A DNA stretch of 64,000 nt from Winogradskyella luteola (GTDB taxonomy: Bacteria; Bacteroidota; Bacteroidia; Flavobacteriales; Flavobacteriaceae), in contig NZ_JAGSPD010000007.1 of NCBI RefSeq assembly GCF_019203985.1, positions 124,001-188,000 of the forward strand, read 5' to 3'. The notes beneath the pieces were generated by a model, which made no database searches, was not told the origin of the DNA, and was given only the letters and a program-made list of their open reading frames with translations. A program made the translations under genes and the position numbers. Shown one piece after another: positions 13,347 through 62,098 of this stretch. How positions within the stretch are numbered: the stretch's first letter is position 1; each line of letters opens with the position of its first letter.

Positions 13347-14561
13347 ATGTCAGCAAGTGCAAAAATAGTTCTACGTAAAAAGCCCAACACCAAAGGGCTT
13401 TATCCACTTGCAATTCGAATAACTAAAAATCGACGCTCTACTTATAAACTTATTGGTCATTATATAGATTTAGAGGATTGGGATTCAAAAAATAATGAAA
13501 TCAAAAAATCCCACCCAAATTCTGAAAGTTTAAATAACCTCATAACGTTAAAATTATCTGAAGCTCGGAAAGGTCTTATTGCTCTACAAACCAACAATAA
13601 AGATGCTTCTGCAAATCAAATTAAAAAAGAGATTTACAAACCCACATCAAACCTAACATTTTTTGATTTTGTTGATGAACACCTTGAAGCTCTAGAAGTT
13701 GAGGGGAAAATGAATCGTCTTTCTACTGACTCAGCTTGGGTTAGTTATATAGAAAAATATTGTAAAGTAAGACATCTAACTTTTCAAGAAATCGATGAAC
13801 GGTTTCTCAAAAAATTTAAAATATATTTAAAAGGCAACTGTTCTCTTACCGAAACTACCGCAATGAATGTCATGGTTTTTATTCGTCTGTTATTCAATAG
13901 AGCGATTAAGGATAAGGTTGTAAGTAAAGAGCTTTATTGTTTTGGGCCAGGAAAATTCAAAATAAAATTTCCAGAAACTGTCAAAGTTGGACTCTCAGAG
14001 AAAGAGTTAAAAGTCATCGAGAGCTTAGATAACCTATCTGATGTAGAACGTCATTCATTGAATGTATGGCTTTTTAGTTTTTACTTTGCTGGAATGAGGG
14101 TTTCAGATGTTCTAAAAACAAGATGGTCTCAAATTTATGATGGTAGATTACATTACAGAATGGGTAAAAATTCCAAATTGCTTTCTCTCAAAATACCATT
14201 AAAAATCTATATAATTTTAGAGGAATATGTTTGCAATAAGAATTATGATGATGACTTTATATTTCCAGAATTAAAAAAAGCTAATCTTGACGATGCTAAA
14301 GACTTATACAATAAAATTAAAACTGCTAATAAAAAATTCAACAAGAACTTAAAGTCTATTGCTCTGAAAGCTGGAATAAATAAGAAAGTAACAATGCACA
14401 TTGCTCGCCACTCATTCGGAAATATTGCTAGAGACACCATCCACCCATTGATGCTTCAAAAGCTGTATCGTCATAGTGATTTAAAAACTACAATTAATTA
14501 TCAAGCTAACTTCATTCATACAGAAGCTGATGATGCTTTGGAAAGTGTAATCAACTTTTAA
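13347..14561 (+). CDS. int: tyrosine recombinase (ICE integrase)
   Basis: A 404-residue site-specific recombinase that integrates and excises the ICE at the tRNA-Leu site. The N-terminal arm-binding domain (about 1-95) and SAM-like core-binding domain (about 100-195) are followed by the catalytic domain. Catalytic residues are readable: Arg251 in AGMRVSD, His351 and Arg354 in HIARHSF, His376 in LYRHSD, and the nucleophile Tyr385 in INYQ. Length and layout fit the Bacteroidetes conjugative-element integrase family. It is the first gene inside the element, 200 bases from the attachment site, and reads away from it. Its stop codon nearly touches that of the convergent PLP enzyme gene. Confidence 0.95.
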   Translation: MSASAKIVLRKKPNTKGLYPLAIRITKNRRSTYKLIGHYIDLEDWDSKNNEIKKSHPNSESLNNLITLKLSEARKGLIALQTNNKDASANQIKKEIYKPTSNLTFFDFVDEHLEALEVEGKMNRLSTDSAWVSYIEKYCKVRHLTFQEIDERFLKKFKIYLKGNCSLTETTAMNVMVFIRLLFNRAIKDKVVSKELYCFGPGKFKIKFPETVKVGLSEKELKVIESLDNLSDVERHSLNVWLFSFYFAGMRVSDVLKTRWSQIYDGRLHYRMGKNSKLLSLKIPLKIYIILEEYVCNKNYDDDFIFPELKKANLDDAKDLYNKIKTANKKFNKNLKSIALKAGINKKVTMHIARHSFGNIARDTIHPLMLQKLYRHSDLKTTINYQANFIHTEADDALESVINF

Positions 14562-16740: not shown

Positions 16741-17568
16741 GTGATGGATTTTACTTTACGCAATTCTATTTACGCTAATGAACTAGAAGAAATTGAACAA
16801 CGTTCTTTACCTATTCTCGATACATCCAGACAAATTATCATATTATCACGAAACACATTAAATGATTTTAAAAAAGCCATTATTGAAAATGATTTTGATT
16901 CGGTGGTCAAGGAAGTAGAATTCTTCAAACACCAGAAGCAAGTCTCTTTAATCCAACTCATTTATTATACTGAAATAAGGTCGTTTGAACTTCAGTTTCC
17001 AAAATCAGAAGTTCAGAAACAAGAAAAGGTATTAAAGAAAAAACTTCGAAAACTCAACCGTTTTTACCTTTACAACATTGACTTTAACCAATATGTAGAA
17101 CACAAGCTTAAACATTTTGATACGCAATATTACACCAGAGGCCATTTAGATAGTTTCTCAATTACATCATCAAAATTTTATTTTCAAGATCCCGATTTTA
17201 GCACACCACGTGATATGCTTTTAGGTAAAATACGAGCTTACAAGCTACTTATTGAGTATCTAAAAAATAAACTTCAACTTATTACCAAAAAACCTTCTAT
17301 TTTAATAGACAATCCAAACCTAAAATGGACATCAACTAAATCTGCACTAACGGAATTAATCTATGCACTTTATTACAATCGTGTTATAAATAATGGAAAT
17401 ATTGATATTAAAGAAATTGCTATTGCACTACAAAGCGTATTACATTTTGACCTTGGCGACTTCTATAAAATATTCTCAGAAATTAAATCTCGTAAAATAA
17501 GTAGAACTAAATTCTTAGATGATTTATCTAATGGGTTACTTCTACAAATGGAAAATTCTGAAGAGTAA
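16741..17568 (+). CDS. RteC-family ICE regulatory protein
   Basis: A 275-residue protein matching the RteC family, which in the tetracycline-inducible Bacteroides element CTnDOT activates excision genes. Visible family features are the basic helical N-terminal half (LRKLNRFYLYNIDFNQYVEH), the central FYFQDPDFSTPRDMLLGKIR block, and the C-terminal winged-helix-like KWTSTKSALTELIYALYYN ... DIKEIAIALQSVLHFDLGDF. It precedes the excisionase-like gene, as in related elements. No two-component rteA/rteB genes are seen here, so the upstream signal differs from CTnDOT. Confidence 0.85.
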   Translation: MMDFTLRNSIYANELEEIEQRSLPILDTSRQIIILSRNTLNDFKKAIIENDFDSVVKEVEFFKHQKQVSLIQLIYYTEIRSFELQFPKSEVQKQEKVLKKKLRKLNRFYLYNIDFNQYVEHKLKHFDTQYYTRGHLDSFSITSSKFYFQDPDFSTPRDMLLGKIRAYKLLIEYLKNKLQLITKKPSILIDNPNLKWTSTKSALTELIYALYYNRVINNGNIDIKEIAIALQSVLHFDLGDFYKIFSEIKSRKISRTKFLDDLSNGLLLQMENSEE

Positions 17569-18135: not shown

Positions 18136-18783
18136 ATGAATTATATAAAACATCTCAATGCTGTATTTCAAAAATTCTATGCAGACAAAAGGCTAAACAC
18201 AACTCATGTCAGCTTGTATATGGCTTTGTTTCAGTTTTGGAATTTAAACCGATTTCGAGAAGAATTTTACATAGACAGGCAAGAAGTTATGGAACTCTCA
18301 AAAATTGGTTCGACAGCAACCTATCATCGCTGTTTAAAACAGATGGATTCATGGAATTATCTAAAATATTTCCCTTCACACAATCCATATAAAGGCAGTA
18401 AAATCAAGTTGTTCAATTTCGGTACAACCTCTGAACAAGTTGTGAATGAGTTTGAAACAAGTAGTGAACAAGCATTGATACATAATACAAACATTAATAA
18501 ACAAATAGAAAACATAAATAAAACTAAGCTACCAAAAAATGAATTTGAAGTGATTGATTTTTTTAAAAAGAAAAAATGGCCTGCTAATGAAGCCAAGAAA
18601 TTCTATAACCATTATCAAGGCATCGGATGGAAAATTGGTGGCAAAATAAAAATTGAAGATTGGCATGCTACAGCGAGTAATTGGATACTAAAAGCCAACG
18701 AATTTGAAACTGCAGATGCAGTTCCTCAAAAAAAGGACAACCTGAGAACCAATAAAAACAAAGATTATGGTCAACCCTTGTAA
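18136..18783 (+). CDS. putative ICE replication initiator-like protein
   Basis: A 215-residue protein. The N-terminal ~95 residues (LNTTHVSLYMALFQFWNLNR, FYIDRQEVMELSKIGSTATY) resemble a winged-helix domain. The C-terminal part (FKKKKWPANEAKKFYNHYQG ... KIEDWHATASNWI) resembles DnaD-like or phage replication-protein tails. The downstream gene is a helicase-loader-type ATPase overlapping by 17 bases. The pair is the usual replication module of these elements; the exact family name is not certain from sequence alone. Confidence 0.7.
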   Translation: MNYIKHLNAVFQKFYADKRLNTTHVSLYMALFQFWNLNRFREEFYIDRQEVMELSKIGSTATYHRCLKQMDSWNYLKYFPSHNPYKGSKIKLFNFGTTSEQVVNEFETSSEQALIHNTNINKQIENINKTKLPKNEFEVIDFFKKKKWPANEAKKFYNHYQGIGWKIGGKIKIEDWHATASNWILKANEFETADAVPQKKDNLRTNKNKDYGQPL

Positions 18784-19423
18784 AATAGTCGAAGAACACA
18801 AAACATATGACATTGGCACGTTTGATGGCAAAGAAGTGATATACGATTTTGAAAAAATCTTAATCTACCTCGATGTTAAAGGAAAAATGCTCTTTGGTAA
18901 CCAATTTAAAATCTACGAAGAAGACCGTCCAATCATTTTAAAACTCTGCCATTATTTTATAAAAGATAAAGAAAACTGTGAAAAAAACGAGATTGATCCC
19001 AACAAAGGCATTTTACTTTCCGGACCTGTTGGTTGTGGTAAAACGAGCTTAATGATTTTGCTAAAAAATATCGTTCCATTGCAAAAACCATACATCCTAA
19101 TTCCTTCCAGGAATATCGTATTTGGTTTCAATCACATTGGTTACAAAACTATTGAAGACTATGGCTGTAGGCAGTTTTTCTGTTTTGATGATTTAGGTGT
19201 AGAACCCATTGGAAGACACTACGGAAAGGATTGTAACGTCATGGGCGAAATATTACTATCACGTCATGAACTTTTTATAAACCATCATATAAAAACACAC
19301 GGAACTACAAACCTAAATGCTGAAGAATTAGAAGATTTATATGGCAATAGAGTCCGAAGCAGAATGCGAGAATTATTTAACCTCGTAGCATTCGATCAAG
19401 ATACTAGCGATAAACGAAAATAA
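18767..19423 (+). CDS. DnaC/IstB-like AAA+ ATPase (helicase loader-like)
   Basis: A 218-residue ATPase with Walker A GPVGCGKTS (about residue 85) and Walker B FCFDDLGVE (about 140). An Arg-containing C-terminal block (GNRVRSRMRELFNLVAFD) matches the sensor-2 region of DnaC/IstB-type loaders. It overlaps the preceding replication protein gene and probably loads the replicative helicase at the ICE origin after excision or transfer. Confidence 0.8.
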   Translation: MVNPCKIVEEHKTYDIGTFDGKEVIYDFEKILIYLDVKGKMLFGNQFKIYEEDRPIILKLCHYFIKDKENCEKNEIDPNKGILLSGPVGCGKTSLMILLKNIVPLQKPYILIPSRNIVFGFNHIGYKTIEDYGCRQFFCFDDLGVEPIGRHYGKDCNVMGEILLSRHELFINHHIKTHGTTNLNAEELEDLYGNRVRSRMRELFNLVAFDQDTSDKRK

Positions 19424-19436
19424 AAACTTAGAAATT

Positions 19437-20555
19437 ATGAAAATAGCAACTTTTAATGTTCAGAACTTATTTCACAGAGACAGAAGCCTGTTAGAAAAAT
19501 TAACCAAAAATTTAACTGTCGATTGGACAATAGAGCTTGACAAACTCATGGTCAAACCTTCTAAATCATTAAACCAACAAGATCGGATTAGAGAACTCTC
19601 ATTTTTAATAGGCTTTGAAAAATCAAGTCCTCGACCTTATGCGGTTTTAAGACGAAAAGCAGGTTTTCTCTTTATGAAAGGTCTTAGCCATTCTATTGAC
19701 AATAAAGCTGGAAATCTCACAGATTGGAATGGATGGATAAAACTTCAAACCGTTCCTATACATCCAAAGTCCACACAACATAAAGCTCAGGTCATCGCCA
19801 ATGTAAATCCAGATATTTTACTATTACAAGAGATTGAAGACAGAGCATCGTTTGAGGATTTTAACCAACTCATTTTACCAGAGTTTGACTGCAAACCTTT
19901 TAATCACTCTTTTGTGATTCAAGGCAACGACATGAATAGTTTAGAAATGGGAATAGCATTGCGACAAGGCTATAATCTAGAAGCTGTTAGAACTCATAAT
20001 ATCAATGCAGCAACTAATGATGATGGCAAAAATTTGATTGAATATGAAATTAGTACACCATCAAAAGAAACTATTTGGTTATTAAATGCCTATTTAAAAA
20101 AATCCTCTAAAGACAGAAAGCAATCTGATAATATTAGAAAAAAACAAGTGTGCAAGATTGCTGAAGTTTATAAAAGAATGATAGCTGAAGGTAAAACCAA
20201 TGTTATCATCGCAGGCACATTTAACGCGCCATCTTATTGTAATTCTTTATCGCCTTTAATTCAGGATACAGATCTAAAAGATATTACGAAACATCTCTCT
20301 TTTGAAGTTGATATCGATAAGGGTAATGATGGTACTTATTTTAGATTGGGCGCTTACAGAATGGGTGTAAATATTAAGCAAAAAGATTACATGTTGTTCT
20401 CTCCAGCTCTATTTGATAAAATGAAGGATAGTGGCTTAAATCGAAAAGCGATGTGGCCAGAAAAGCATCCGCAATGGTCTATCTACAAATCTGTTTCTAA
20501 TAAAAATGTTGCTGCTAGTGAGCATCCTTTGGTTTGGGGGAATATTGACATTTAA
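19437..20555 (+). CDS. endonuclease/exonuclease/phosphatase-fold protein
   Basis: A 372-residue DNase I-like (EEP fold) protein. Recognised blocks are the start MKIATFNVQNLF (metal-site Asn), DILLLQEIED (metal-binding Glu), WLLNAYLKK, IIAGTFNAPS and the C-terminal ASEHPLVWG (catalytic His). The usual GDFN motif reads GTFN here, so the conserved Asp is replaced by Thr; activity may be altered. It follows the helicase-loader gene by 13 bases in the same operon. A role in ICE DNA processing or as cargo is possible; the substrate is unknown. Confidence 0.8.
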   Translation: MKIATFNVQNLFHRDRSLLEKLTKNLTVDWTIELDKLMVKPSKSLNQQDRIRELSFLIGFEKSSPRPYAVLRRKAGFLFMKGLSHSIDNKAGNLTDWNGWIKLQTVPIHPKSTQHKAQVIANVNPDILLLQEIEDRASFEDFNQLILPEFDCKPFNHSFVIQGNDMNSLEMGIALRQGYNLEAVRTHNINAATNDDGKNLIEYEISTPSKETIWLLNAYLKKSSKDRKQSDNIRKKQVCKIAEVYKRMIAEGKTNVIIAGTFNAPSYCNSLSPLIQDTDLKDITKHLSFEVDIDKGNDGTYFRLGAYRMGVNIKQKDYMLFSPALFDKMKDSGLNRKAMWPEKHPQWSIYKSVSNKNVAASEHPLVWGNIDI

Positions 20556-20556
20556 A

Positions 20557-21288
20557 CTACTTAATTTTATTTATCTCCTTAAAAGAAAAGTCTTTTAAAG
20601 CTTCATTTATGAAGGTATGTAGACCATTTTTTATTTCTTCAATCTTATCATTTGACAAATGGTTTGCGATTGAAGGATGAAATAAAATTCTCAATTGTTT
20701 ATAAAATATAATCAGTCGGTTCGATGTATCTAAGATCGAATTATAATCCTCTTTATTGACAGTTTTTTGTGGAATTAAAATTTCATCTCTATAATCTACA
20801 TAAAAACCAGCATTTTTTAGGTCATTAAACTTTTTAATGCCCTCAATCCTGCTAATAGCCGAACTAACATTTGATAGTACAAATGATGCATCTGATAAAA
20901 ATTGCAATGTATTATTAAGCCATTTCTTTTTCGTGTTAGGAATTTGCCTTTTGAGTTTTCTATTTTCCCATCTATCAATTGTATCAAATAGAGACATTCC
21001 TGTTTCAATAAGCATTTGAAGCGAATGTCTTATTTCATGATTTTTAAAAAATCCTTTAGCATCTTTAAGTAAATACACTCTATACCCATGACTATGCAAT
21101 AATACCAATATTGCTTTTATGACTTCTTCGGAACTCAAAATAAGTAAAGAACTTGCGCTGCTATATGATTTATTTACATCAACTAATACTGAAGAATCAG
21201 ATTTTAAACGTTTTGCATTTTCAAAAATGTCTCTGTTTAAATCTTTAGAATCCTTTTTAGATAAATTTATAAAAGTTACTTCTTGCAT
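20557..21288 (-). CDS. AbiV-like HEPN protein (abortive infection family)
   Basis: A 243-residue all-helical protein. The block SSASSLLILSSEEVIKAILV (about 40-60) followed by FKNHEIRHSL matches the AbiV-type HEPN pattern: an EE..KA helix, then a His-bearing helix. HEPN proteins are commonly RNases, and lactococcal AbiV blocks phage growth by interfering with translation. It is the last gene of a three-gene minus-strand operon, 26 bases after the coiled-coil protein and downstream of the giant STAND ATPase, which supports a defence role. A catalytic RxxxxH motif is not evident, so RNase activity is uncertain. Confidence 0.7.
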   Translation of the reverse strand: MQEVTFINLSKKDSKDLNRDIFENAKRLKSDSSVLVDVNKSYSSASSLLILSSEEVIKAILVLLHSHGYRVYLLKDAKGFFKNHEIRHSLQMLIETGMSLFDTIDRWENRKLKRQIPNTKKKWLNNTLQFLSDASFVLSNVSSAISRIEGIKKFNDLKNAGFYVDYRDEILIPQKTVNKEDYNSILDTSNRLIIFYKQLRILFHPSIANHLSNDKIEEIKNGLHTFINEALKDFSFKEINKIK

Positions 21289-21314
21289 TTTATTAATTAG
21301 CTAAATTTAAGATG

Positions 21315-22019
21315 TTACAGCTTTTTATTTTTCTTTTTTAGAGCATTGAATATTTTCTTTTTTAGCGCCAATAACTCTTCTTTTTGCTCATTTAACTGCT
21401 CTTCAAGCTCATTAAATAATTTTTCAACTTTTTCTTTTTCAGTTTCTTCCTTCTCTTCCTCGCCATGAATAGAAATTGTTATTTCTCTTATTGAATCTAA
21501 ATATTCTACTACGCTCTTTTCATCATCCGATAAAAAACTACCGTGCTCTTCAATCCATTCTTTATCTTTTTCCAAAAGTTCCTCACTTATCATTGAAATT
21601 AATGATTTACGGTATATTCTTTCAGAGTTGTTTTTTACTGTTTTCAAAAAGCTAAGCCAGCTTGAATTACTATTCTTTGATCCATTTTTTTTATCTAAAA
21701 ACCTATGACGAATAAAAGGGTGTTCATTTTTTTTGAGTAATGAAATAACATCAATTATTGGTTTTAGTTTTTCAGTAGGTTTTTCAATCGGTAATCTTTC
21801 TCTTTTCCCCCATATTTCTAATATTATATTGCAGCATTCTCTTTGAAGGTTGTTTTTTTCCTCTTTAGACTCACACTTATCAATATCATTGATTAATTCA
21901 GCTAGATAATGAGCCAACCATCTTGCTAAGGTATTTCCTGTATAAACTAATTCTAATTCTTTTATTAGCTTCTTACCTAACTTTAAAATCTCTTCCTCTG
22001 AGTGTTTTGACTGTTCCAT
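21315..22019 (-). CDS. helical/coiled-coil partner protein of the STAND ATPase
   Basis: A 234-residue protein of unknown family. Residues 1-75 are helical with GNTLARWLAHYLAELI and a Cys/acidic stretch (KCESKEEKNNLQRECC). The C-terminal third is a long, highly charged coiled coil (EEKEETEKEKVEKLFNELEE onward) ending in a Lys-rich tail. It starts within the end of the STAND gene (47-base overlap), so the two are almost surely co-translated. This fits an accessory or adaptor subunit of a large NACHT/STAND defence protein; no function can be assigned from motifs. Confidence 0.7.
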   Translation of the reverse strand: MEQSKHSEEEILKLGKKLIKELELVYTGNTLARWLAHYLAELINDIDKCESKEEKNNLQRECCNIILEIWGKRERLPIEKPTEKLKPIIDVISLLKKNEHPFIRHRFLDKKNGSKNSNSSWLSFLKTVKNNSERIYRKSLISMISEELLEKDKEWIEEHGSFLSDDEKSVVEYLDSIREITISIHGEEEKEETEKEKVEKLFNELEEQLNEQKEELLALKKKIFNALKKKNKKL

Positions 22020-25000
22020 CCGCTTTTAATAAATAAATTTTAGTATGCTCCCAAGGCTGTTTCCTATTATCGCTCCTATATTGACTTTCCTTAAGTTGTT
22101 TGGTTATTTGACACTTTATAATCATATTCAAATTCTTCTTTTCCAAAATTTTCAAAATGAAATGAATATCAACTTTTAATATTTCTCCTGAACTTTCAAT
22201 GTTCTTAACATCTCTATATCTACTATCACTTGTTTCATCCCAAAATTCTAATATAGATACTTTATCATCATTTATCTGAGCCATTTTTAAATCATCACTA
22301 AATTCAATTTGGAAAGCCTCTTGAACATTTGTTCCAAAAGTAATGATACTTTTACCTGTTCTTTTCGTTAGAGAATCATGCTTGTCTAAGCCATCATATA
22401 TCGTGTCATTAACTTTTAACCAACTTTTAAAGATGAAATCGTTATTCTTAACCTCAAAACGCTCTCCATCATTTTCTATTGGAAAAGCATAATCATGCTG
22501 ATCTTCTGCGCTCTGAAAAGCTCTTAATAAAGCTTCAGAACCTTTGACTGAAACTAGAGCTGAACGGATATAAACGGTTTCACTATTATCGCCAATATGA
22601 CGTGTAAACCCAGCGTGAGGAATAATAAACCTTTCGTCATAAAATTCCGAAAAACCTATTTCTTTATCAAATCTACCTTCATGAATTGTATCTCTCCACT
22701 CTTTATCAAATTTATCATATTCATTTTTCCAAAACGTATCTAATAATGGTAATGGGTCTCGTAAATCTGAAGCCCAAAAATCATTCCAAGTGATGGCTTT
22801 GGATTTAAGCCAATAGTCCCAGGAATCGTAATCATCTTCGTCATCATAATATTTTACTAATTGAGGTTCTTTCTCTAGCAACTCATTTGCAGCACAAAAC
22901 ATAGCATGGTATTCAAAATAGGTGTCTAAACTTTCAACTTGTGGGTTGCTACCTTTTCTTTTATCTCTTAATCCCCAATCGTAATTTCGAGTATAATCAT
23001 CTTTATTTATATCGCCTGTATATCCCCATTTTTCTACAATATATTTATCAGCTATATCTGCGACATCATATTCAGATAAATTAAAAATATCTCCAAGATT
23101 ACTGTACCAATAAGGTAAGACATCCATACCATCAAAATCAAATCTCCAACTTTTATCTGAAGTCGAGTTATATCTTCTTTGCTTTCTAGAATACGATTCT
23201 TCTTTTACTTTATCAAATTTACTTACTAAAGCATTTTCAATTATTAGTTGTTCATCTTTATTGTAAATCTTATCATTATATTTTAATAAGTTCTGACAGA
23301 CCCTTTTAATGAAAAAATTAATTAACACATGTGGTAATTCTTCATTTTGAAGTTCTTTGATGAAAAATTCTTTTAAGTCCACAAGTTTTTCAGGCACTTC
23401 AGCACTTACTCTATCTATTGCAATCCAAAGATATAATTTGGCCGATATCCAATAAAAAATGTATTCCTCATTCTGAAATGGACTACAATTGGTTTCATTT
23501 TGAGCTTTTATTAGATAGTTAAGAACACTCTTATTACCAAGATTAACTAGATTTCTTATACTATGAATTGCTTCCCATCTTAGTTCCTTATCTGGCAATC
23601 CTAGATATAATCGTAAAATATTTGCAATAGCTTCGTCGGTATCTGAAGGTGGCATCATCTTATCATTCCATAAGCCATCTCTAAAATCGAAATTTATGTT
23701 TTTATTCCATCTCGTTAAAACCCAATTAAAAATTTCGGTATTATCTTTTATAGTGAGCCTATGTTTGATTAAGAAAAATACACTATATATAGATTCATCA
23801 GTTAATACTTCTATCTTTTCTGGTAAAATTTCAAGAATGATTTCTCCTAATTGAGTTTCGTTAATATCAAACATTTTAGCAAACTCTAACAACTTACCGA
23901 TACTAAGAGAATTACCATAATCAAAGTTTTCAAACCATGTTAGAATAACATACCTAAATTTCTCTTTTTTCCATTGTTTTAAAGAGGGATAATAACTCCA
24001 TTCCTCTAGTCGTTCTTTAATAGCATCTTCAAACGAATAGAAACTTAAAAGCTCCGAGTCTATATCCACAATAGCATCCAATTGATTTGTATAATCCTTA
24101 GGCTGACAATTATTTTTTATCTCGATCAAAAAAATATCTATTTTCCATCTGTTAGAATAACTGTCGTTATTTTCAATTATAGTACTAATAGCTTTTTCCA
24201 AGTCTCTTGTCGAACTTATATCAATACCGCTAAGATCTATCTCATGAACATGTTTTTCTTTATCAAAATCATTAGAATATGTGCTTTCTTTTTCTTTTTC
24301 AATTGTTTCTCTAAAGTTTAAGTACGTTTCAATTTTTTGGATTATTTGCATTTCAACAAATGCGCCTGACTTAATTGCATTGTAAATATGATTTAAAGTA
24401 CTTTTATTTTTATGAAGTAAGCAATCTCTATAAATTATTTCAACAAATTTAGTTTTACCTGTTATGTCTCTTGATTCATCGTATTTTGTTAAAATCATAT
24501 CAAAAAGCTCAATCGATTCATCTGTATAATATTTATACTGATACATTGGAATTAACGAACCTGCTACAACATGATTAATCTTACCTTTCTTTAGAGAAAA
24601 TTTTAAAATAGCAACAATATATTTAGACAAACTAATTACACCTCTATGATGCCATCTAGACGCTGTTGTAAACATTGAATTAAAATTGATATCCGAGATT
24701 CCATACAAAGCATTCTTAAAAGGAAAATGTTTTTTATCATAACCTTCTAGCATGTAATCACTATATTCTGTAAACCTAGCGTACTCATGGGCAAGTTTAG
24801 GATCTGGTTTTTCAAAACCTATCTTTGCTAAATCTGATAAACAACTGATTTTAGAAAAGACTTCAAAATCAATTTCTTCAGTAGCTTTTATAGCTTCATT
24901 AAAGTAATACTTACCAGAAGTAAAGTCTATCTTTCGGCTAATCAAAGCACATTTAATATAACTTTCTATTCTTTGTGATGAAGGGTTTGAACCAGTTTTA

Positions 25001-28000
25001 ATTAGTTCATCAATTTCACTTAGTATTTTGAGATTTTTATTTAGAAAGCCTTTTGAGTATATTGTTTCTTCTACAATCCAAAATCTCATTGCTATTTTAC
25101 TTGCGTTACTATCCAATGATGAAATGAGCAAATCTATTAAATCATTATTGTTAATTTTTACAGCAAAATTGGCTAATAGGCTAGCAAAATAATTTACTTT
25201 TTCTTGGTAACTATACCCATTTTCGTGCCTAAAACCAAAATCTCTAGAAAAAGACTCGCAAATATTACCAAACTTTTTTATTGCCTCTTCATTCGTGATT
25301 TTTTTGGATACAAAATCTATATTTAATTGAAAGATTGGTAGAATATGATTATAGAAACTAGTAAACTCTTTTTTCTCTCTTTCTAAAGAATTTTTCTTTT
25401 CATAATCCTCAATCTTTTCAAGATCGTCAAATTTATTTGGAAGTAAACTCTCGACAGACAATAATCCATTATCAATAAAAGCTTTTAAAGATTTGATCTT
25501 TAAAAATAGATTTATTTTGTTTGCATCATCATCGTTACCATGTCTTCGATAAAAGCTAGGAATATAATTTGGCAACTCATATTTAATATGCTTTAGAATA
25601 CTATTTACCAACAATCTGTCAATATCATTAGATATCAATATCTCACAAAAATCGACAAGTATTTGTCTGAATTTAATATTGAACTTAATTATTTTTCTGG
25701 ATAGCACTTTTTCAATTTCACTAGCAATTACCTTTAATTCAAAATCTTGATGTATCCCAAACTTAAAAGCCTTGGCAACAACAAATATCTTAGCATCAAT
25801 TCTCAAAGATTCTATTTTAAACCATTTATTAACTTCAGTTTTATTACTTAATAAAAATAAGCTCTCAATTAAATAGTTTCCCCCAGACAACCTCACATCT
25901 CTAGGTGTCCAACTATTAATTGAACTCAATGCTTCGTCAACACCTACTAATCTTAAAACTGCTTCTGTGTAATAAGCTATATCCTTACTTGAAATAGGGT
26001 ATTTATGTAAATCATCTTTCTTAACAGAGTCACTTCTCCAGTTAAGCCATTCTTTAGCTGTTTTTAAATGTTTTAAAGCAGCTTTTTGATTCTCTGTCTT
26101 CCTTGAATACACACCTGCTAACTTCATGTGAAATGAGCCAGCCCATGATTTTTCATCTGAATTGAGTTTTAGTTTATTAAGCGAAGTATCATCTCCAAAT
26201 TCTGACACTAAATCGGGATAATCAATTAATAATGCAGTTAAGGCCTTCTCCTTTTTAGCTTCTTCGGCAGCGATAAATATGAGTTTAAAATAAGTTAAAT
26301 TATCATCAACAGTATTAGCCACCTTCATTGCTAATCTAGTTCTACTTATATAAGTAGCTCTATTTTTTATTGGGTCCTCTGGAAGTAATAAGAACTTTCT
26401 CTCTAGAACTATATCCTTTAATAATTGGTTTTGTTTTGACTGAAAAAGTAAGTTGCCCAAATTAACTGAAGCATAGCTATCATTCTCTGCATTTTTAAGA
26501 AAAATTTCAGTTATTTGAGTTAGTCTTTCCTGACTTAGTGAATAATTATCTCGAATATAATTTTCAAAATCTTCATCTCGAAATTCAAAACTATTATTTT
26601 CATATATAAGTCCAGTCCAGACTTCAGATGATATATCTAATAGAAAACTTTGACCGACATTTAATATTTCTGATAAATAATTTATGGGTACAGGTCTTGG
26701 TAATCCAATTAAAAGGCTAAAAAAATCATCTATTATTATTTTCTCTTTATTAGATACCTTTTTTTTAGCTTCTTTAATCTTATCAAGAATAAGTAACTCT
26801 ACTGTTTTTCCGTTTGGTTTTAAAAAATTTATAACTTCCTTTATACCTTTCTTCTTCAAATCGATTGAATAAAATTGAGCTCTAGGAATACCATTTGTGT
26901 ATTTATGAAATTCAGAAATTTCTGTATCTGAAATGTCTGGAAAGTATTTTTTTATAAACTGAGTCGTTTCTTCTATACTAAATGGTTCTAACTCAATATC
27001 AATATAATCTTCTGGTAAATTAAGTGACTCTTTTCGATGTGTTCTAGTAGTCACTATTAAATTGCACCCTGAAGGTATTTCCATATTTAAAATATCATGT
27101 ACAAAGCTTTTTTCTGCATTATTGCTAGCTGCTGTGATACTATTATCTGCTGCATCAATAATAATGGTAAGAGTAGCATTAATATCTCTTTGTTTTAAAA
27201 TTTCTACGGCATGTACAATTCTTTTCTTGAATTCTTTCACATAAACATCACTCTGTAAAGGAAAATATGTTATCAAAAAATCTGTTCCTATTTTTTTAGC
27301 AATTTCGTTCGATATATGTGTTAATGCATTTTTATGTAAATGTCTATTATCTTCAGCATTTTGATATGAACCAGAACCATAGCAATCAAAGGTTATACAT
27401 TCATTGCTATCTGGTAAGTAATTTTGTATTTGTTGGATTATGGTAGATTTTCCAATCCCAGCACCACCATGAATACATATTGGGATAAAATCCATGTTTG
27501 CAGCTATCTCAGAATTTATTGATTCTAATTGCTCTCTTAAAACACTATTCTTATTATCCTCCAAACTTTGAGAAACAGGGAATAAATTTTCTATACTGCC
27601 ATCGTTAAATCCTAAATTTGCGATAACATCAGTAAGCGTAATTTTCCTCCTGCTTCTAGCTTCTGGCATCATTTTATCAAAAACTAAATCGCGTAATTGA
27701 TTGTATTGAATTTTTGAATTGTATGTTGTTCTAGAAATAGCTTTATATTGTTGAATTTTCAGATTAAGCCTTGAATCTGTCCCACAATCGTCTAAATCTA
27801 GTATCCTTATAAAATCAGTAAATTCAGTTACTTTTAATCTGGAAGCAGCAAATAATTTTTTTAATGAATCGCTATTTTCAGGATTATTCTTAAGTACCGC
27901 ATTAAAACTTACTTTTCCTTTCTTTTTAAGTAGATAAGCTTTGATATCATTAATAGTTTTGAGGTGATTAGTGTTAAAGTTTCTATTAGTGACTAATTTT

Positions 28001-28431
28001 ATATGTACTTTTTTTAACACAGACTCTCTACCAAATTCATCTAAATAAATCTTGAATATATTTGCTAACCTATGAATTAATGAACCTTCAGTAGATTTGC
28101 TTTTTTTACCTAACCATAATTCTCCTAATGTATAATTCTTATTACTTCTAAGTGTACTATATTTTAACTGAGAGATAATAACTTTTTTCGCTTCAATATA
28201 ATTATCCGCACCATAATATTCACTTAAATCAACTCCAAGTAAATTTTTCCCTGTTGGATCTAATTGCTCTGACTCTGACAATTCAACACCTTCAATGTTG
28301 ATGGCCTTGACACCTAAGTCATTAAAGTTTAATAGTTCTAAAGACTTTTTTATCGTCCAAAGAATATGAAAATCATCTCCAGCACTAGAGATATCAGCAT
28401 CTTGTATGTGCTTAATTTTGTTTTTACTCAT
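21973..28431 (-). CDS. giant STAND/NACHT-type ATPase with N-terminal nuclease-like domain (Avs-like defence protein)
   Basis: A 2152-residue protein. The N-terminal ~230 residues (SSAGDDFHILWTIKKSLELL; GVDLSEYYGAD at 66-76; ISQLKYS at 86-92) have the pattern of a PD-(D/E)xK/Cap4-type nuclease with a QLK active-site strand. A STAND NTPase follows: Walker A HGGAGIGKST (321-330), Walker B IIIDAAD (about 423-429), and a TTRTHR sensor (461-466). The remaining ~1500 residues are mostly helical, repeat-like, with a beta-rich C-terminal section, as expected for a ligand-sensing superstructure. The architecture resembles bacterial Avs/NACHT anti-phage sensors, which oligomerise on binding a phage protein and activate their nuclease. 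It leads an operon with a coiled-coil partner and an AbiV-like gene. Confidence 0.82.
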   Translation of the reverse strand: MSKNKIKHIQDADISSAGDDFHILWTIKKSLELLNFNDLGVKAINIEGVELSESEQLDPTGKNLLGVDLSEYYGADNYIEAKKVIISQLKYSTLRSNKNYTLGELWLGKKSKSTEGSLIHRLANIFKIYLDEFGRESVLKKVHIKLVTNRNFNTNHLKTINDIKAYLLKKKGKVSFNAVLKNNPENSDSLKKLFAASRLKVTEFTDFIRILDLDDCGTDSRLNLKIQQYKAISRTTYNSKIQYNQLRDLVFDKMMPEARSRRKITLTDVIANLGFNDGSIENLFPVSQSLEDNKNSVLREQLESINSEIAANMDFIPICIHGGAGIGKSTIIQQIQNYLPDSNECITFDCYGSGSYQNAEDNRHLHKNALTHISNEIAKKIGTDFLITYFPLQSDVYVKEFKKRIVHAVEILKQRDINATLTIIIDAADNSITAASNNAEKSFVHDILNMEIPSGCNLIVTTRTHRKESLNLPEDYIDIELEPFSIEETTQFIKKYFPDISDTEISEFHKYTNGIPRAQFYSIDLKKKGIKEVINFLKPNGKTVELLILDKIKEAKKKVSNKEKIIIDDFFSLLIGLPRPVPINYLSEILNVGQSFLLDISSEVWTGLIYENNSFEFRDEDFENYIRDNYSLSQERLTQITEIFLKNAENDSYASVNLGNLLFQSKQNQLLKDIVLERKFLLLPEDPIKNRATYISRTRLAMKVANTVDDNLTYFKLIFIAAEEAKKEKALTALLIDYPDLVSEFGDDTSLNKLKLNSDEKSWAGSFHMKLAGVYSRKTENQKAALKHLKTAKEWLNWRSDSVKKDDLHKYPISSKDIAYYTEAVLRLVGVDEALSSINSWTPRDVRLSGGNYLIESLFLLSNKTEVNKWFKIESLRIDAKIFVVAKAFKFGIHQDFELKVIASEIEKVLSRKIIKFNIKFRQILVDFCEILISNDIDRLLVNSILKHIKYELPNYIPSFYRRHGNDDDANKINLFLKIKSLKAFIDNGLLSVESLLPNKFDDLEKIEDYEKKNSLEREKKEFTSFYNHILPIFQLNIDFVSKKITNEEAIKKFGNICESFSRDFGFRHENGYSYQEKVNYFASLLANFAVKINNNDLIDLLISSLDSNASKIAMRFWIVEETIYSKGFLNKNLKILSEIDELIKTGSNPSSQRIESYIKCALISRKIDFTSGKYYFNEAIKATEEIDFEVFSKISCLSDLAKIGFEKPDPKLAHEYARFTEYSDYMLEGYDKKHFPFKNALYGISDINFNSMFTTASRWHHRGVISLSKYIVAILKFSLKKGKINHVVAGSLIPMYQYKYYTDESIELFDMILTKYDESRDITGKTKFVEIIYRDCLLHKNKSTLNHIYNAIKSGAFVEMQIIQKIETYLNFRETIEKEKESTYSNDFDKEKHVHEIDLSGIDISSTRDLEKAISTIIENNDSYSNRWKIDIFLIEIKNNCQPKDYTNQLDAIVDIDSELLSFYSFEDAIKERLEEWSYYPSLKQWKKEKFRYVILTWFENFDYGNSLSIGKLLEFAKMFDINETQLGEIILEILPEKIEVLTDESIYSVFFLIKHRLTIKDNTEIFNWVLTRWNKNINFDFRDGLWNDKMMPPSDTDEAIANILRLYLGLPDKELRWEAIHSIRNLVNLGNKSVLNYLIKAQNETNCSPFQNEEYIFYWISAKLYLWIAIDRVSAEVPEKLVDLKEFFIKELQNEELPHVLINFFIKRVCQNLLKYNDKIYNKDEQLIIENALVSKFDKVKEESYSRKQRRYNSTSDKSWRFDFDGMDVLPYWYSNLGDIFNLSEYDVADIADKYIVEKWGYTGDINKDDYTRNYDWGLRDKRKGSNPQVESLDTYFEYHAMFCAANELLEKEPQLVKYYDDEDDYDSWDYWLKSKAITWNDFWASDLRDPLPLLDTFWKNEYDKFDKEWRDTIHEGRFDKEIGFSEFYDERFIIPHAGFTRHIGDNSETVYIRSALVSVKGSEALLRAFQSAEDQHDYAFPIENDGERFEVKNNDFIFKSWLKVNDTIYDGLDKHDSLTKRTGKSIITFGTNVQEAFQIEFSDDLKMAQINDDKVSILEFWDETSDSRYRDVKNIESSGEILKVDIHFILKILEKKNLNMIIKCQITKQLKESQYRSDNRKQPWEHTKIYLLKADGTVKTLRGRDFKVR

Positions 28432-28510
28432 TTAATCCACTAAATATTTTGATTAAAATAAGGATTTTAAAAAGTATTAAACGACAATAACTGATTAATT
28501 AATAAGAGCC

Positions 28511-28603
28511 TTACAACTTTTTAAATTTCTTATAAATCTCAAAGAATAAAGCTTTTACAATTTCCTTTATACTCTTTACAAGAGCAATCATAAACTCACT
28601 CAT
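28511..28603 (-). CDS. 30-residue amphipathic peptide coupled to the amidase gene
   Basis: A 30-codon frame (MSEFMIALVKSIKEIVKALF..., rich in Lys, Ile, Phe) whose ATG overlaps the amidase TGA as ATGA, the classical sign of translational coupling. The peptide would form one amphipathic, basic helix. No family is recognised. The stop/start overlap is suggestive, but a frame this short could be chance. Confidence 0.35.
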   Translation of the reverse strand: MSEFMIALVKSIKEIVKALFFEIYKKFKKL

Positions 28604-29253
28604 AATCCTAAAAATTTAATAATCGATTGAAGTATAACCAAAGCAACAGCACTTTGAGATTCTTCTTTAGTTAAATATATTGCCTCATCAGTTTGAGACA
28701 AAAACCCAAGTTCTAAAAGAATACTTGCACTACTGTTAGAACTATCTCGAAGCACTTGGAAGTTTCCATATTTCAATCCACGGTTTTTAATACCAAGTAT
28801 ATCAGCTAATCCTTTTTGTATAGTAAAACCTAAATAGGCGGATTCTTCAGCTTGCACTTCACTTTTAGGATGAATGAAAACCTCTGTTCCTGATGCTGTT
28901 CTGTTTATAGCTTGATTACAATGTATCGAAATAAATATATCAGCTTTAAGTTTTTTGGATAGTTCCGTTCTATCGCCTAGAGATATTAATGTGTCTGTAT
29001 ATCTAGTGAGATATAACATTAAAGGATTTTCAACTAACTTGTTATTTAGCACTACTATTTTAGAAGCAATACCCAAAGCAATATCTTTTTCTTTTATACC
29101 AGTTCTGGTTGTTGCACCAGCATCTTTTCCGCCATGTCCAGGATCTATAACTACAATAGGATTCCTTACTTGGACTTTACCATTTTGTGCATAAGTAATT
29201 TTTAAAAAAACTAGACAAAATAGTAAGAGTGTAATTTGATTTAATGTGCTCAT
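28600..29253 (-). CDS. N-acetylmuramoyl-L-alanine amidase (AmiC-type, Amidase_3)
   Basis: A 217-residue zinc amidase that cuts the peptide from murein glycan. It has a signal peptide (ending near TYAQ), so it is exported. Zinc and catalytic residues are visible: His40 in IDPGHGG, Glu55 in GIKEKDIA, the second His in ISIHCN, and catalytic Glu in LLELGF. Length equals a bare catalytic domain. It sits immediately before the divergent conjugation operon, where a local murein hydrolase would help build the secretion channel, as lytic enzymes do in other conjugation systems; that role is inferred. Confidence 0.9.
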   Translation of the reverse strand: MSTLNQITLLLFCLVFLKITYAQNGKVQVRNPIVVIDPGHGGKDAGATTRTGIKEKDIALGIASKIVVLNNKLVENPLMLYLTRYTDTLISLGDRTELSKKLKADIFISIHCNQAINRTASGTEVFIHPKSEVQAEESAYLGFTIQKGLADILGIKNRGLKYGNFQVLRDSSNSSASILLELGFLSQTDEAIYLTKEESQSAVALVILQSIIKFLGL

Positions 29254-29716: not shown

Positions 29717-30000
29717 TGAAGCGATACGAGGTCTATAAAAACATTAGGAAACGGGCGGTCATTTTTGGCTTGCCCATTTCCCTATTTGCCTTAATGATGG
29801 TTTCTATATTAGCATCATTATTAATTATCATCTTCTCTTTCAGTTTTGTGTTGATAATTGGCATTCTGATTTTCAATTCAGCCTTATATGTTGCCTTGAC
29901 GCGCATAACCCACAATCCACAACTTTTTCAGATGGCAAAAGCCTTCCCAAGAATTATAAGCAACAAAAGAAATTCCGGCTTCGATTATGAACAAGATTAA
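29716..30000 (+). CDS. DUF4133 conjugation protein (TraF-type, VirB3-like)
   Basis: A 94-residue membrane protein with a basic N-terminus (YEVYKNIRKRAVIFGLPIS), two adjacent hydrophobic helices and a polar tail (ISNKRNSGFDYEQD). The family is DUF4133, comparable to VirB3. The start codon overlaps the previous stop by one base, and it overlaps the following traG start by 14 bases. Confidence 0.87.
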   Translation: MKRYEVYKNIRKRAVIFGLPISLFALMMVSILASLLIIIFSFSFVLIIGILIFNSALYVALTRITHNPQLFQMAKAFPRIISNKRNSGFDYEQD

Positions 30001-32389
30001 TATTTCAGCATATCAACCTATTGTAGATATTCAAGACCATATCGTATTTGCCAATAATGGCAATGTGGTTTTATGCTATGAAGGGAATCTGCCAGAAATC
30101 TATTCCTTGTCCGAAAAGGATTTTGAGGATATGCATGGTGCTTGGTTTCAAGCTTTGAAATCATTACCTATTGGAACTGTAGTTCACAAACAGGACATCT
30201 ACCTTAAAAAAACGTATTCTTCAGAACAACTTCCAAATACCACCTTTTTAGAAAAAGCCACATACGAGCATTTCAAAGGGCGCGGACATATAGAGCACAA
30301 ATGTTATTTGTTCTTCATTTTAACCAAAAACAAAGCTCTTAACAATCCAAAATACGTCAATCCCTTCAGAAAAATTTCAAAAGGCATTGTAAAAGAATTG
30401 GACGATAACATTAAGAGCTTCGCAAACGCTGTAATCGATTCGGTTTCCTTTGTAAATAACAGTAGAAAAATAGAATTTCTTCCATTAAAATCGGAAGATA
30501 TTCAGCAATTAACAAGTAGTTATTTTAATGGTTTCAATGAGGGCTTTGATACCGATATTTTATTGGAAAAGAAAAGCGTCAATATAGGCGAAAACCATTT
30601 TGATGCGCTCGCCATCAACAGCGAATTATGCTTTGGCGAAAATGTTCAGAGCAGCAAAACCAATGAGAAATTCACTTCGGATGATTTTGTGTTTCATCAA
30701 GGATTTATCGATGGACTAGGACTTACACTTAATGAAAATCATATTGTTAACCAGATTCTATATTTAGATGATAAACAGAAATGGCGCAAACTACTCGATA
30801 AGAAAATAGAGGAACTCAATAAGAGTTCCAATTTTGGTTCACAGAACAAAGTGGTGCTTGGTAAAATTCAGCACATTTTGGACCAAATCAATGCAGATGA
30901 TAATTCACGAATTGTACGTGGTCATCTCAATATTGTGTATTGGTCTAAGGATGCTAAAGAGTTAGATAAAATAACTTCCAAAATTAAAACCGAATTTAAG
31001 GAATTGGATATCATCCCTTACTATCCAAGAGGCGAAGAACGCAAAAATTACATCCTAAATAGTTACTGTTGCTTCTCTTCTAATTTTTCAAACAATGATT
31101 TATACGTAACCGATTTAAAACATGCGCTTTGCTTGTTCATCAATAATACCAATTACAAATCTGATAAAACAGGCATCATCTTTAATGACAGAGAACATAA
31201 CATTCCGGTATTAAAAGATGTTTGGGATGAAAAAAAGAAACGCATCAAGGCTAGAAATTTTGCCATTTTCGCACCAACAGGCGAAGGCAAATCGTTCTTA
31301 GCCAACAACATTCTGCGCCAATATTTTGAAAGTGGTGTTCGTCTAGTAATTATAGATTTGGGTGGTTCTTACACCAAATTCGCCAAGCTCTATCCTGAAA
31401 AATATACCGTATTACGATATGAAAGCGGAAAAAACTTAGGTATCAATCCCTTTTACATTAGTGACGTAAAAGATTTAACACCTGAACGGTTAGAGGATTT
31501 ATCTGTATTCCTTTTTGAATTGTTTGCTTCGGATTTAAAAGTAACTAAAGCGCAATCAGTTTCGGTTAAAAAGATACTGCGCCATTATTACAATAGCACT
31601 TCAGAAAATCATTCATTGGAAGGTTATTACAACTTTATAGAAAGGCACCAGGAAAATCTTCTGAGCACATTAAAAATCCATCCCGACTACTTTAATGTTA
31701 CAAGCTTTCTGCATGTGATGTCTGAGTATGTTGGCGATGGTCTATATAGTTTTCTATTTGAGGTCAGCGAAGACCAAACTTATAAAATAGAAGACAAACG
31801 ATTAATTGTTTTTGAACTCGACGAAGTAAAGGACAACAAGGAAATCCTGTCTGTAATGTTGAAGCTGATTAAATCTGCCATCCAAAGAACCATTTGGAAA
31901 AACAGAGCTGAAAAAGGTATCATCTTATTCGATGAGTTTGCTAAACAACTGAAGTTTGAAAACGTATTGGAAAGTGTCGAGTTCTACTATCAAGCCATAC
32001 GAAAGCAAAATGGCGCCATTGGAATTATTCTACAATCCATTAATCAACTTCCGAATAATTCAACATCCGCAAGCATATTAGAAAACACTCAAGTTATCTA
32101 CAGTCTGAATAATGAAAAAGGTTATGATGAACTGGTTAAAAGACTCAATCTTTCTAGCCACGACTTAAACCAATTAAAATCTATAAAAAACAATCTCTCT
32201 GGACAAAGAAAGTACACCGAAATGTTCATCAAAATCGGAAAGGAAAGCAACATTTTTAGGCTCGAAGTTCCTAAAGAAGTGTATGCAGCCTATTTAACCG
32301 ATGGACGAGAAAATGAGGACATCATGAAGCTCTACGAAGAGCATCACGATATGCAAAAAGCAATAATTCAATTCACATCTAAAAATTAA
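29987..32389 (+). CDS. traG: TraG-family conjugation ATPase (VirB4-like)
   Basis: An 800-residue cytoplasmic ATPase that powers assembly of the conjugation channel. The N-terminal TraC/VirB4-like half is followed by an NTPase domain: Walker A APTGEGKS (about residue 430), the VIIDLGGSYTKFAKLYPEKY block typical of this family, and Walker B GIILFDEFAK (about 640). The C-terminal QSINQLP segment is also characteristic. Its length is normal for Bacteroidetes conjugative-transposon TraG. It should not be confused with the coupling protein at 39694, which is also often called TraG. Confidence 0.93.
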   Translation: MNKINISAYQPIVDIQDHIVFANNGNVVLCYEGNLPEIYSLSEKDFEDMHGAWFQALKSLPIGTVVHKQDIYLKKTYSSEQLPNTTFLEKATYEHFKGRGHIEHKCYLFFILTKNKALNNPKYVNPFRKISKGIVKELDDNIKSFANAVIDSVSFVNNSRKIEFLPLKSEDIQQLTSSYFNGFNEGFDTDILLEKKSVNIGENHFDALAINSELCFGENVQSSKTNEKFTSDDFVFHQGFIDGLGLTLNENHIVNQILYLDDKQKWRKLLDKKIEELNKSSNFGSQNKVVLGKIQHILDQINADDNSRIVRGHLNIVYWSKDAKELDKITSKIKTEFKELDIIPYYPRGEERKNYILNSYCCFSSNFSNNDLYVTDLKHALCLFINNTNYKSDKTGIIFNDREHNIPVLKDVWDEKKKRIKARNFAIFAPTGEGKSFLANNILRQYFESGVRLVIIDLGGSYTKFAKLYPEKYTVLRYESGKNLGINPFYISDVKDLTPERLEDLSVFLFELFASDLKVTKAQSVSVKKILRHYYNSTSENHSLEGYYNFIERHQENLLSTLKIHPDYFNVTSFLHVMSEYVGDGLYSFLFEVSEDQTYKIEDKRLIVFELDEVKDNKEILSVMLKLIKSAIQRTIWKNRAEKGIILFDEFAKQLKFENVLESVEFYYQAIRKQNGAIGIILQSINQLPNNSTSASILENTQVIYSLNNEKGYDELVKRLNLSSHDLNQLKSIKNNLSGQRKYTEMFIKIGKESNIFRLEVPKEVYAAYLTDGRENEDIMKLYEEHHDMQKAIIQFTSKN

Positions 32390-38271: not shown

Positions 38272-39648
38272 TTATTTACTCATATTAATTTCCCAATACC
38301 CTCTAGTACCATCTTTTCGTTCTAAATAGCCTTTTTCTTTAATAGCATTTATATGTTTACCAACAGCAGATTCATTGATACCTAAAACTTCAGCTATTTC
38401 ATTATAAGTTATGGTTTTATTTTCAGCAATTAGTTTAAGTACTTCTTTTTGCCTTTTAGTCAATTTAGAATTATCGTCTATTTCACTACCTATTACACCA
38501 CCTATTACACCACCTATTGCACCACCTTCTTGACCCCCTTCTCCATTATCTTCTTTATCATCTACTTTAGTAGTAAGTTCTTTAGTAACAAAAGCCATTC
38601 TAAGAAAGTTTTCAGAAAAATTAAAACTCTCTTTACCATAGTGATCTAAAATACGTGGAATACCAGAACCTAGTTGCTCTACTAACTCCAAGTCTTTAAA
38701 TATGCGCATCAGTTCTTTGTTACGAGGGACTGAAAACCCTTCAAAAAATTCTTGCTGACTCAATCCTTCAGGTAAACCTCCAGCAGATGTAATTTCAATT
38801 CTATCTGAAAAAATCTCAAACTTGGGCGGTACTTCATTGGTATAATCATTATGTACAAAAGCATTAATAATGGCTTCACGTAATGCAATAGGATTCCATA
38901 GGTGGCTTTGTTCTCTCTCCTTTGAAGTGATTTTTGTAGCTATTCTATTTTCTACAGCAATTTTATCTATGACTTGTTTAGTTGCCTTTGCTAAACACTC
39001 ATTGCCATACTCATTACTTTCTATTAAATCTGTTCGATTTGTACCAGAATATTTAGCAACTTTAATAGACGTATTATTCTTATCAGCCAAAAGATAAGCT
39101 GCATAATTATATGCGCCATCTTCAGTAAGTAGTTCTAAATTTTTAGCAAATGCGTTGCCTAGTTTATAGCCTGATTCTTCATAATATATTTTCAGTTGGC
39201 TAAAAGTCAAGTCTTGTGTCGTTGCTTTGATTTTACTTATTGAATTTCGAGTACGTTTAGAAAAAAGCGTATCAATCATTTTTTGAGGCATTGGTTCTGC
39301 AGCAGTTCCAATTCGTATAAAGCACCCCTTTTCACTCATACCATATTTTCTTAAATGATATGGTTTTTCTGGTCCACTTGCTACAATAATTTTTATGATA
39401 TCCTTACCCTCACGTTCTTCACTAACAATATCAAATAAGCCTAATGCAGATGGTTTAATATTGTGTTTCAACCGATCCTTTATCTTTAATTGGTCACTAT
39501 CTGAATCTACCAAACCATAAGTTTTTCCTGTTTTATCAATACCTATATAGATAATGCCACCTTCACGATAGTTCAGAAAAGCAATGACTTCTTTTTCTAA
39601 TCCTTCAGTAAGCTCTTGTTTGTATTCTATACGATTGGTCTCGGTCAT
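38272..39648 (-). CDS. AlbA_2 (Schlafen-like) / HATPase_c / winged-helix regulator
   Basis: A 458-residue protein of the type often annotated as putative DNA-binding or RecG-like. Residues 1-120 form an AlbA_2 domain (EYKQELTEGLEKEVIAFLNY, EGGIIYIGIDKTG). Residues ~250-345 resemble a GHKL-type HATPase_c_4 region (LREAIINAFVHNDY; DRIEITSAGGLPEGL; EQLGSGIPRI). A Gly-Val-Ile-Gly repeat linker (about 385-395) leads to a C-terminal winged helix (KRQKEVLKLIAENKTITYNE, AEVLGINESAVGKHI). It heads the minus-strand operon with the membrane protein, Mrr and TIR genes, and may be its regulator or sensor. Confidence 0.82.
   Translation of the reverse strand: MTETNRIEYKQELTEGLEKEVIAFLNYREGGIIYIGIDKTGKTYGLVDSDSDQLKIKDRLKHNIKPSALGLFDIVSEEREGKDIIKIIVASGPEKPYHLRKYGMSEKGCFIRIGTAAEPMPQKMIDTLFSKRTRNSISKIKATTQDLTFSQLKIYYEESGYKLGNAFAKNLELLTEDGAYNYAAYLLADKNNTSIKVAKYSGTNRTDLIESNEYGNECLAKATKQVIDKIAVENRIATKITSKEREQSHLWNPIALREAIINAFVHNDYTNEVPPKFEIFSDRIEITSAGGLPEGLSQQEFFEGFSVPRNKELMRIFKDLELVEQLGSGIPRILDHYGKESFNFSENFLRMAFVTKELTTKVDDKEDNGEGGQEGGAIGGVIGGVIGSEIDDNSKLTKRQKEVLKLIAENKTITYNEIAEVLGINESAVGKHINAIKEKGYLERKDGTRGYWEINMSK
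38485..38524. repeat. 12-bp tandem repeat coding the Gly/Val/Ile linker
   Basis: About three units of CCACCTATTACA in the AlbA_2 gene (minus strand Gly-Gly-Val-Ile repeats). Unit gain or loss stays in frame and would change linker length between the ATPase-like region and the winged helix. Confidence 0.8.
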
Positions 39649-61595: not shown

Positions 61596-62079
61596 TTTCT
61601 AATCGTTTTATCATTGCTTTCATTTCTTCTATTTCCTTTTTCTGTGCTTTAATAATATCCTCTGCTAATTGTTTAACTTCTGGGTCTTTTATATCTGCTC
61701 TTTCGCTTGTTAGAATTGCTATGGAATGATGTGGTATCATACCCTTCATCCAAAGTACATCACCTACGGTTGATTTTTGGTCACGTACTAAACCTAAAGC
61801 ACCAAGGAAAAGGATGATGCTACCTAATACAATACCCAAATTTTTCCTTTTATTCTTGTACATATTCTTCATAAAGAAAAACATAATTAAGGCCATAGCT
61901 GCAATACCTAAACAGACCATATAAAATCGTGTTAGACTAAACCATACGTGGTCAAATTCATAAGTATTTAAGTACATTGTGATATACATTGCAACAAATG
62001 ATGAGCCTAACATCAAAAAGAATTTAGTGTAATTGCTCATACCTTTATTATCGTTGTTTGTGTGTTCTTGTGTGTTCAT
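61585..62079 (-). CDS. DUF305-family membrane protein
   Basis: A 164-residue protein with three hydrophobic helices (about 16-40, 48-70, 82-100) and a C-terminal DUF305 segment with the conserved MIPHHSIAILTS and DIIKAQKKEIEEMKAMI. DUF305 proteins accompany copper-handling genes; the His pair is a likely copper ligand. It sits between the CopA-type ATPase (19 bases upstream) and the adaptor gene (overlap). Confidence 0.87.
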   Translation of the reverse strand: MNTQEHTNNDNKGMSNYTKFFLMLGSSFVAMYITMYLNTYEFDHVWFSLTRFYMVCLGIAAMALIMFFFMKNMYKNKRKNLGIVLGSIILFLGALGLVRDQKSTVGDVLWMKGMIPHHSIAILTSERADIKDPEVKQLAEDIIKAQKKEIEEMKAMIKRLENEK

Positions 62080-62098
62080 AATATTTTGATTTTAATGG

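Follow-up and report, generated by a model that had tools for sequence, protein, structure and literature searches.

The closest described counterparts of the locus considered here are the type III AVAST systems and the lactococcal protein AbiV. Avs1–4 nucleases cut both phage and host DNA after recognizing terminase, portal or some other protein of the phage (PMC12931631), and for type III the structure of SeAvs3 has been solved (PDB 8dgc), the record being titled as Avs3 bound to the terminase of phage PhiV-1. In Lactococcus, AbiV is known as a single protein of 201 aa; its gene is chromosomal and silent until the promoter region rearranges, and its product, which interacts with SaV of the phage, is a probable inhibitor of translation (PMC3231927). 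AbiV is described as a HEPN family whose members typically lack the histidine of the Rx4-6H motif but have another conserved histidine; the same survey (Anantharaman et al. 2013, PMC3710099) treats HEPN genes linked to restriction-modification, where a HEPN gene accompanies an operon for DNA-targeting defence.

The window, that is, the whole 64,000-nucleotide stretch of Winogradskyella luteola DNA that was analysed, carries a diverged system of AVAST type III to which AbiV is attached as an optional extra. The three genes lie on the reverse strand: avs3a (21973..28431) encodes 2152 aa with a PD-(D/E)xK nuclease at about residues 1–250, a STAND/NACHT NTPase at about 318–499 and a long C-terminal region to residue 2152; avs3b (21315..22019) encodes a 234-aa coiled-coil partner and has its start codon inside avs3a; abiV (20557..21288) encodes a 243-aa AbiV-family HEPN protein. 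avs3a and avs3b overlap by 47 bases, and 26 bases separate avs3b from abiV, exactly as in the initial annotation, which had proposed a three-gene operon with two effectors behind one sensor and whose interpretation is, overall, partly supported.

Judged by its sequence, the 2152-aa protein is related to Avs3a over its full length: the PADLOC Avs3a profile matches residues 15–2144 with positions 10–2090 of its 2090 (E 3.2e-239), and residues 15–2147 align with the chain of the solved SeAvs3 structure (E 9.7e-147), so that a novel giant family is ruled out. The nuclease-STAND architecture that had been read from the sequence holds; NACHT (PF05729) scores 33 bits against a cut-off of 26.7. The 234-aa protein matches PADLOC Avs3b (E 2.7e-25; a sequence search returned no solved relative, best E 0.1), which likewise rules out a novel coiled-coil partner; giant and partner together are at the family level AVAST type III and thus already known. 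The window shares with SeAvs3 the homology over the full length, the PD-(D/E)xK N-terminus, the STAND core, the giant C-terminus and the overlapping avs3b; it differs in that abiV follows, that a conjugative element bears the genes, and that both proteins fall below the NCBIfam cut-offs. In the NF041816 / NF041817 test Avs3a scores 870.1 bits (cut-off 2800) and Avs3b 96.4 (cut-off 200), which indicates a distant branch and not the named equivalogs. Avs3a is 23.5–28.6% identical to 18 plasmid-borne relatives from other phyla, and its branch is a diverged Bacteroidota branch of AVAST type III.

The motifs on which the initial annotation had relied are all found in Avs3a, namely QLK at 88–90, Walker A GGAGIGKS at 322–329 and a Walker-B-like IIIDAADN at 423–430. 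E47, D68, Q88, L89, K90, G325, G327, K328 and D426 are invariant in all 18 aligned sequences (the window protein, its 14 relatives from Bacteroidota and one plasmid-borne copy each from Janthinobacterium, Priestia and Rhizobium), and 104 positions are invariant across this alignment. In a predicted model of residues 1–310 with a mean pLDDT of 58 (below 50 for residues 1–74), strands 41–48 and 83–90 bear E47 and QLK, respectively; the best Foldseek match of this model is 8dgc (E 1.7e-8), followed more weakly by the Lamassu nuclease LmuA and Hachiman, which favours the nuclease fold suggested for this end of the protein. With its 2152 codons under purifying selection (dN/dS 0.10–0.12 against relatives L001–L004), avs3a is not a chance reading frame.

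Relatives of Avs3a were collected by searching six exact peptides of the window protein in one genome per species (84,980 species), which gave 16 loci; 14 of them hold full-length Avs3a and two partial ones (L015, L016) were dropped, while more distant Avs3 loci are, in such an exact-peptide search, sampled through only three of 18 plasmid records. avs3b overlaps avs3a in all 14 and is present in all three plasmid loci that were opened, in keeping with the dedicated partner foreseen from the sequence. abiV lies directly downstream in only two, intact in L001 and with an in-frame premature stop at codon 91 in L004 (Lacinutrix algicola), whose avs3a and avs3b are intact; in L006 it lies upstream of Avs3, in another operon, after a Septu-like PDC-M62A/B pair, and the remaining 11 loci have no AbiV within 6 kb. 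Hence the expected three-gene order holds across relatives for avs3a and avs3b but not for abiV; AbiV is no conserved part of Avs3, and an obligate three-gene system is ruled out. Two close Avs3a relatives, 81 and 88% identical, are without abiV, and in the Avs3a tree the abiV-bearing window, L001 and L004 fall into one five-member clade with the abiV-less L002 and L003. No remnant of abiV was detected by tblastn at E below 1 in L002, L003, L005, L007–L014 and L025–L027. Among 296 genomes of the order the window's own is the only full Avs3a, next to one weak partial match. Other genes are found after avs3b as well: in L011 (13166-17081) an AAA/OLD-TOPRIM protein and a further gene, which we take to be Gabija-like, in L003 (13196-15037) a gene of 244 aa with a DUF4238 gene, and in L007 (13130-17430) two genes of 192 and 1240 aa, neither with a Pfam match over cut-off.

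This distribution bears on the idea that Avs3 has in AbiV a second effector or a back-up, such that terminase-bound Avs3a would release both its nuclease and the HEPN protein, perhaps via Avs3b. The optional occurrence of abiV counts against such coupling, with AbiV within 6 kb in a minority of loci, missing from two members of the very subclade to which the window belongs, broken in L004 beside an intact avs3ab, and found in L006 behind a different, Septu-like pair; we therefore regard a coupled second effector as unlikely. There are nevertheless observations that it would account for. The gaps between avs3b and abiV are 26, 34 and 38 bases in the window, L001 and L004, always on the same strand, abiV is under purifying selection (dN/dS 0.08–0.09 against both L001 and L004), and their slot holds no other cargo than the three genes, which were transferred as a block (see below); an exactly filled slot, such short gaps and purifying selection would fit one functional unit, too. 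Moreover, AbiV near both Avs3 systems of one strain is in line with coupling and is not predicted if the two parts work independently. The strain is Gillisia limnaea DSM 15749, whose two Avs3a proteins are 82% (L001) and 54% (L006) identical to that of the window, with AbiV within 6 kb downstream of the former and upstream of the latter.

The genes are borne by an integrative conjugative element, as indicated by a tyrosine integrase (13347-14561), RteC (16741-17568), a TraG-like conjugation ATPase (29987..32389, forward strand), a coupling protein (39694-41289) and a ParB-like protein, all encoded within the window. On the left, the cargo is flanked by forward-strand genes for a DnaC-like ATPase (18767-19423) and an endonuclease/exonuclease/phosphatase-like protein (19437-20555), on the right by an N-acetylmuramoyl-L-alanine amidase gene (28600..29253, reverse strand), all part of the element backbone. 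The near-identical element L102 aligns with the window at 93% on both sides, ending at 20542 and resuming at 28546, and it has no counterpart to the segment in between (20543..28545); the replaced segment thus comprises abiV, avs3b and avs3a and no other large open reading frame. In L102–L115 the interval from the DnaC-like and endonuclease/exonuclease/phosphatase-like genes to the amidase and tra genes is a variable cargo slot, filled in L107, for instance, with a CBASS-type cyclase (7ljo, E 1.6e-50) and a CapV-like phospholipase. Among 199 genomes of the family, 64 have a match to the DnaC-like protein (E 0.001); tra genes occur in 12 of the 14 elements for which the 18 kb beside this gene were fetched, and within these 18 kb neither avs3 nor abiV was found in any of the 14. 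As the endonuclease/exonuclease/phosphatase-like gene adjoins the DnaC-like gene in nine of the 14, the gene at 19437-20555 is element backbone and does not belong to the defence operon.

Comparison with L001 indicates that the cassette has changed backbones. Positions 20487-28723 of the window are 81.9% identical to L001, whereas backbone pieces on both sides reach 65.8–77.5%; dS is about 4.3 for TraG, which is near saturation, against 0.90 for avs3a and 0.73 for abiV. The cassette being closer than the backbone and dS being far higher for TraG, the three genes moved together between backbones. With L004 there is a single alignment at 80% and no contrast between cassette and backbone, and the pS values are uneven (0.357 for avs3a, 0.485 for avs3b, 0.527 for abiV); the block was therefore not strictly inherited as one piece, and recombination inside the cassette is suggested by these figures.

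Simple defence-island clustering, with two unrelated systems side by side in one cargo slot and abiV a decaying passenger, has to be weighed as well. The many different cargos of the slot, the other genes found after avs3b in L011 and L003 and the premature stop in the abiV of L004 all count in its favour. It does not sit well with the low dN/dS of abiV, which argues against decay in the window and L001, nor with the retention of all three genes through a transfer between diverged backbones; since only 15 of 397 genomes of the family have an AbiV match, three finds next to avs3b are not scatter either, though they may go back to one event. Chance neighbourhood is on balance improbable. The reading we prefer, and hold to be probably correct, is a two-layer defence cassette, Avs3ab plus an optional, separate AbiV, carried as cargo of an integrative conjugative element; given what the Avs literature reports on triggers and nucleases, two layers with separate triggers on one mobile cassette are most likely.

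In the first layer, by analogy to studied systems, the C-terminal region of Avs3a would bind a conserved phage protein, which for Avs3 would be the terminase large subunit. Bound Avs3a may then oligomerize through its STAND NTPase and switch on the N-terminal PD-(D/E)xK nuclease, whereupon DNA would be destroyed and the infection aborted; Avs3b would act as the constant partner of Avs3a. The second layer would be the separately evolved and optional AbiV-type HEPN protein, encoded by the last gene in the same direction and presumably co-transcribed with the others, most likely responding to a trigger of its own and either cleaving RNA or shutting off translation when the first layer fails. Counts from promoter and terminator scans did not exceed those of shuffled sequence, and no Rfam family was found in the window. 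With this locus, Avs3 sensing as known from experiment would extend into a diverged branch that is spread by conjugative elements. A full-text search of a library of open-access papers returned nothing that pairs Avs3 with AbiV, or AVAST with HEPN and Avs3; with looser terms, some papers were found that name both AbiV and AVAST.

The assignment of the third gene to AbiV, already suspected at the outset, is firm: the protein scores 107 bits with PF18728 (HEPN_AbiV; cut-off 27.1) and 74.8 bits with TIGR04498 (cut-off 27). The PADLOC 2023 models gave no match at E up to 1, a sequence search gave no solved relative (best E 1), and the predicted structure, with a mean pLDDT of 42.9, is too poor for use. 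E54, H84, R/K87 and Y163 are kept in all 30 aligned AbiV rows. As with the lactococcal protein, compared here by way of its family description, the window AbiV belongs to the HEPN_AbiV family and has a histidine and a basic residue (H84, R/K87) in place of the canonical Rx4-6H; H84 may well be the conserved histidine meant in PMC3710099. The two differ in length (201 aa against 243 aa) and in their surroundings, the window AbiV belonging to a subclade of seven rows found beside or near multi-gene defence operons. The lactococcal protein has SaV as its own interaction partner from the phage (PMC3231927), which is a further point against dependence of AbiV on Avs3. All seven rows of the subclade share Y-K-x-L-[RK]-x-x-x-[HN]-P near the C-terminus (residues 196–205), the R/K and H positions of which are not conserved in the other 23.

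AbiV is a rare protein, with matches (E 0.001) in 3 of 68 genomes of the genus, 6 of 296 of the order, 14 of 395 of the class and the above-mentioned 15 of the family, in samples which overlap and include the window's genome. Neither avs3a nor avs3b occurs in any of 28 regions around AbiV matches outside the window, which again speaks against a coupled effector; the AbiV gene was confirmed by a local profile in 27 of them, L060 giving a weak match only (E 0.0034). Contig ends cut several of these regions (L049, L051, L052, L058, L078, L085), and the set excludes matches in G181, G689 (two), G699, G857 (over cut-off), G995 and G1089 and a fragment in G932. Close relatives of AbiV were absent from plasmid and phage records at 1e-3, and a pattern-based search of viral contigs detected neither AbiV nor Avs3a.

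In the 30-row tree, which omits L084, the window's subclade of seven rows is well supported (100/99). Three of its rows adjoin Avs3; AbiV directly follows a type I specificity gene in L028 and L053 and the Septu-like pair in L006, and in L056 it comes after a 567-aa gene whose pentapeptide match is below threshold, and it lies about 2.9 kb from a gene read as type I HsdS-like, an assignment supported by comparison with specificity subunits. In the section of the table of PMC3710099 that was consulted, no operon partner is listed for AbiV, whereas here there is Avs3 and, in relatives, type I restriction-modification and Septu-like genes. The wider clade is less well supported (93/93); in it the genes near AbiV are those of a GmrSD_N protein together with an SMC-like ATPase in L059, an ApeA-like gene in L058, type I restriction-modification with Mrr and DarTG in L080 and another Septu-like pair in L079. 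In L082 (7698-13240) the genes for a 1412-aa protein, whose NACHT match falls just short of the cut-off, for a 162-aa protein and for AbiV overlap at their ends; neither of the first two proteins has a PADLOC match at E 1e-4. This unrelated NACHT-like operon would be a parallel in favour of a second effector, but two distant relatives of its large protein, found in 46 genomes, have no AbiV in their 6.4-kb loci.

That AbiV, known from Lactococcus as a lone protein, recurs beside multi-gene defence operons is of interest in itself, and the recurrence of the window's branch beside unrelated operons is the more interesting lead. One may speculate that this subclade is a portable fail-safe effector which fires once the operon that hosts it is either triggered or blocked; Avs3 would in that case control two effectors, one acting on DNA and the other on RNA or translation; the operons served would then be Avs3, another NACHT-like operon, type I restriction-modification and a Septu-like ATPase-HNH pair. 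Such a role, doubtful at present, would, if AbiV does listen to its host operon, amount to a plug-in second effector common to unrelated sensors.

We do not claim that AbiV divides cleanly into a defence-linked and an orphan clade. The midpoint root separates clade A from clade B (support 93/93), and contexts were grouped by reading the neighbours, unblinded. In a symmetric scan of open reading frames within 4 kb (PADLOC E 1e-10, loci from AbiV searches only), the 116 neighbours of 15 clade-A loci match 292 models, the 25 listed being redundant type I subunits and one mad5, and the 81 neighbours of 11 clade-B loci match 13 models, including SoFic, DolB and DrmC, both counts referring to models and not to loci. 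The nearest upstream gene on the same strand has no PADLOC match at E 1e-3 in the nine clade-B loci tested of 11 and likewise in L031 of clade A; upstream genes scanned in L056, L058, L081 and L082, also of clade A, gave no PADLOC match. For L057, L031, L077, L078, L083 and L086, where neighbours were partly scanned singly, no defence partner of AbiV was identified. Elsewhere in the window, a SLFN_AlbA_2 protein, two P-type (E1-E2) ATPases and a CusB/HlyD-type efflux gene are encoded at 38272-39648, 50007-51971 and 59817-63991.
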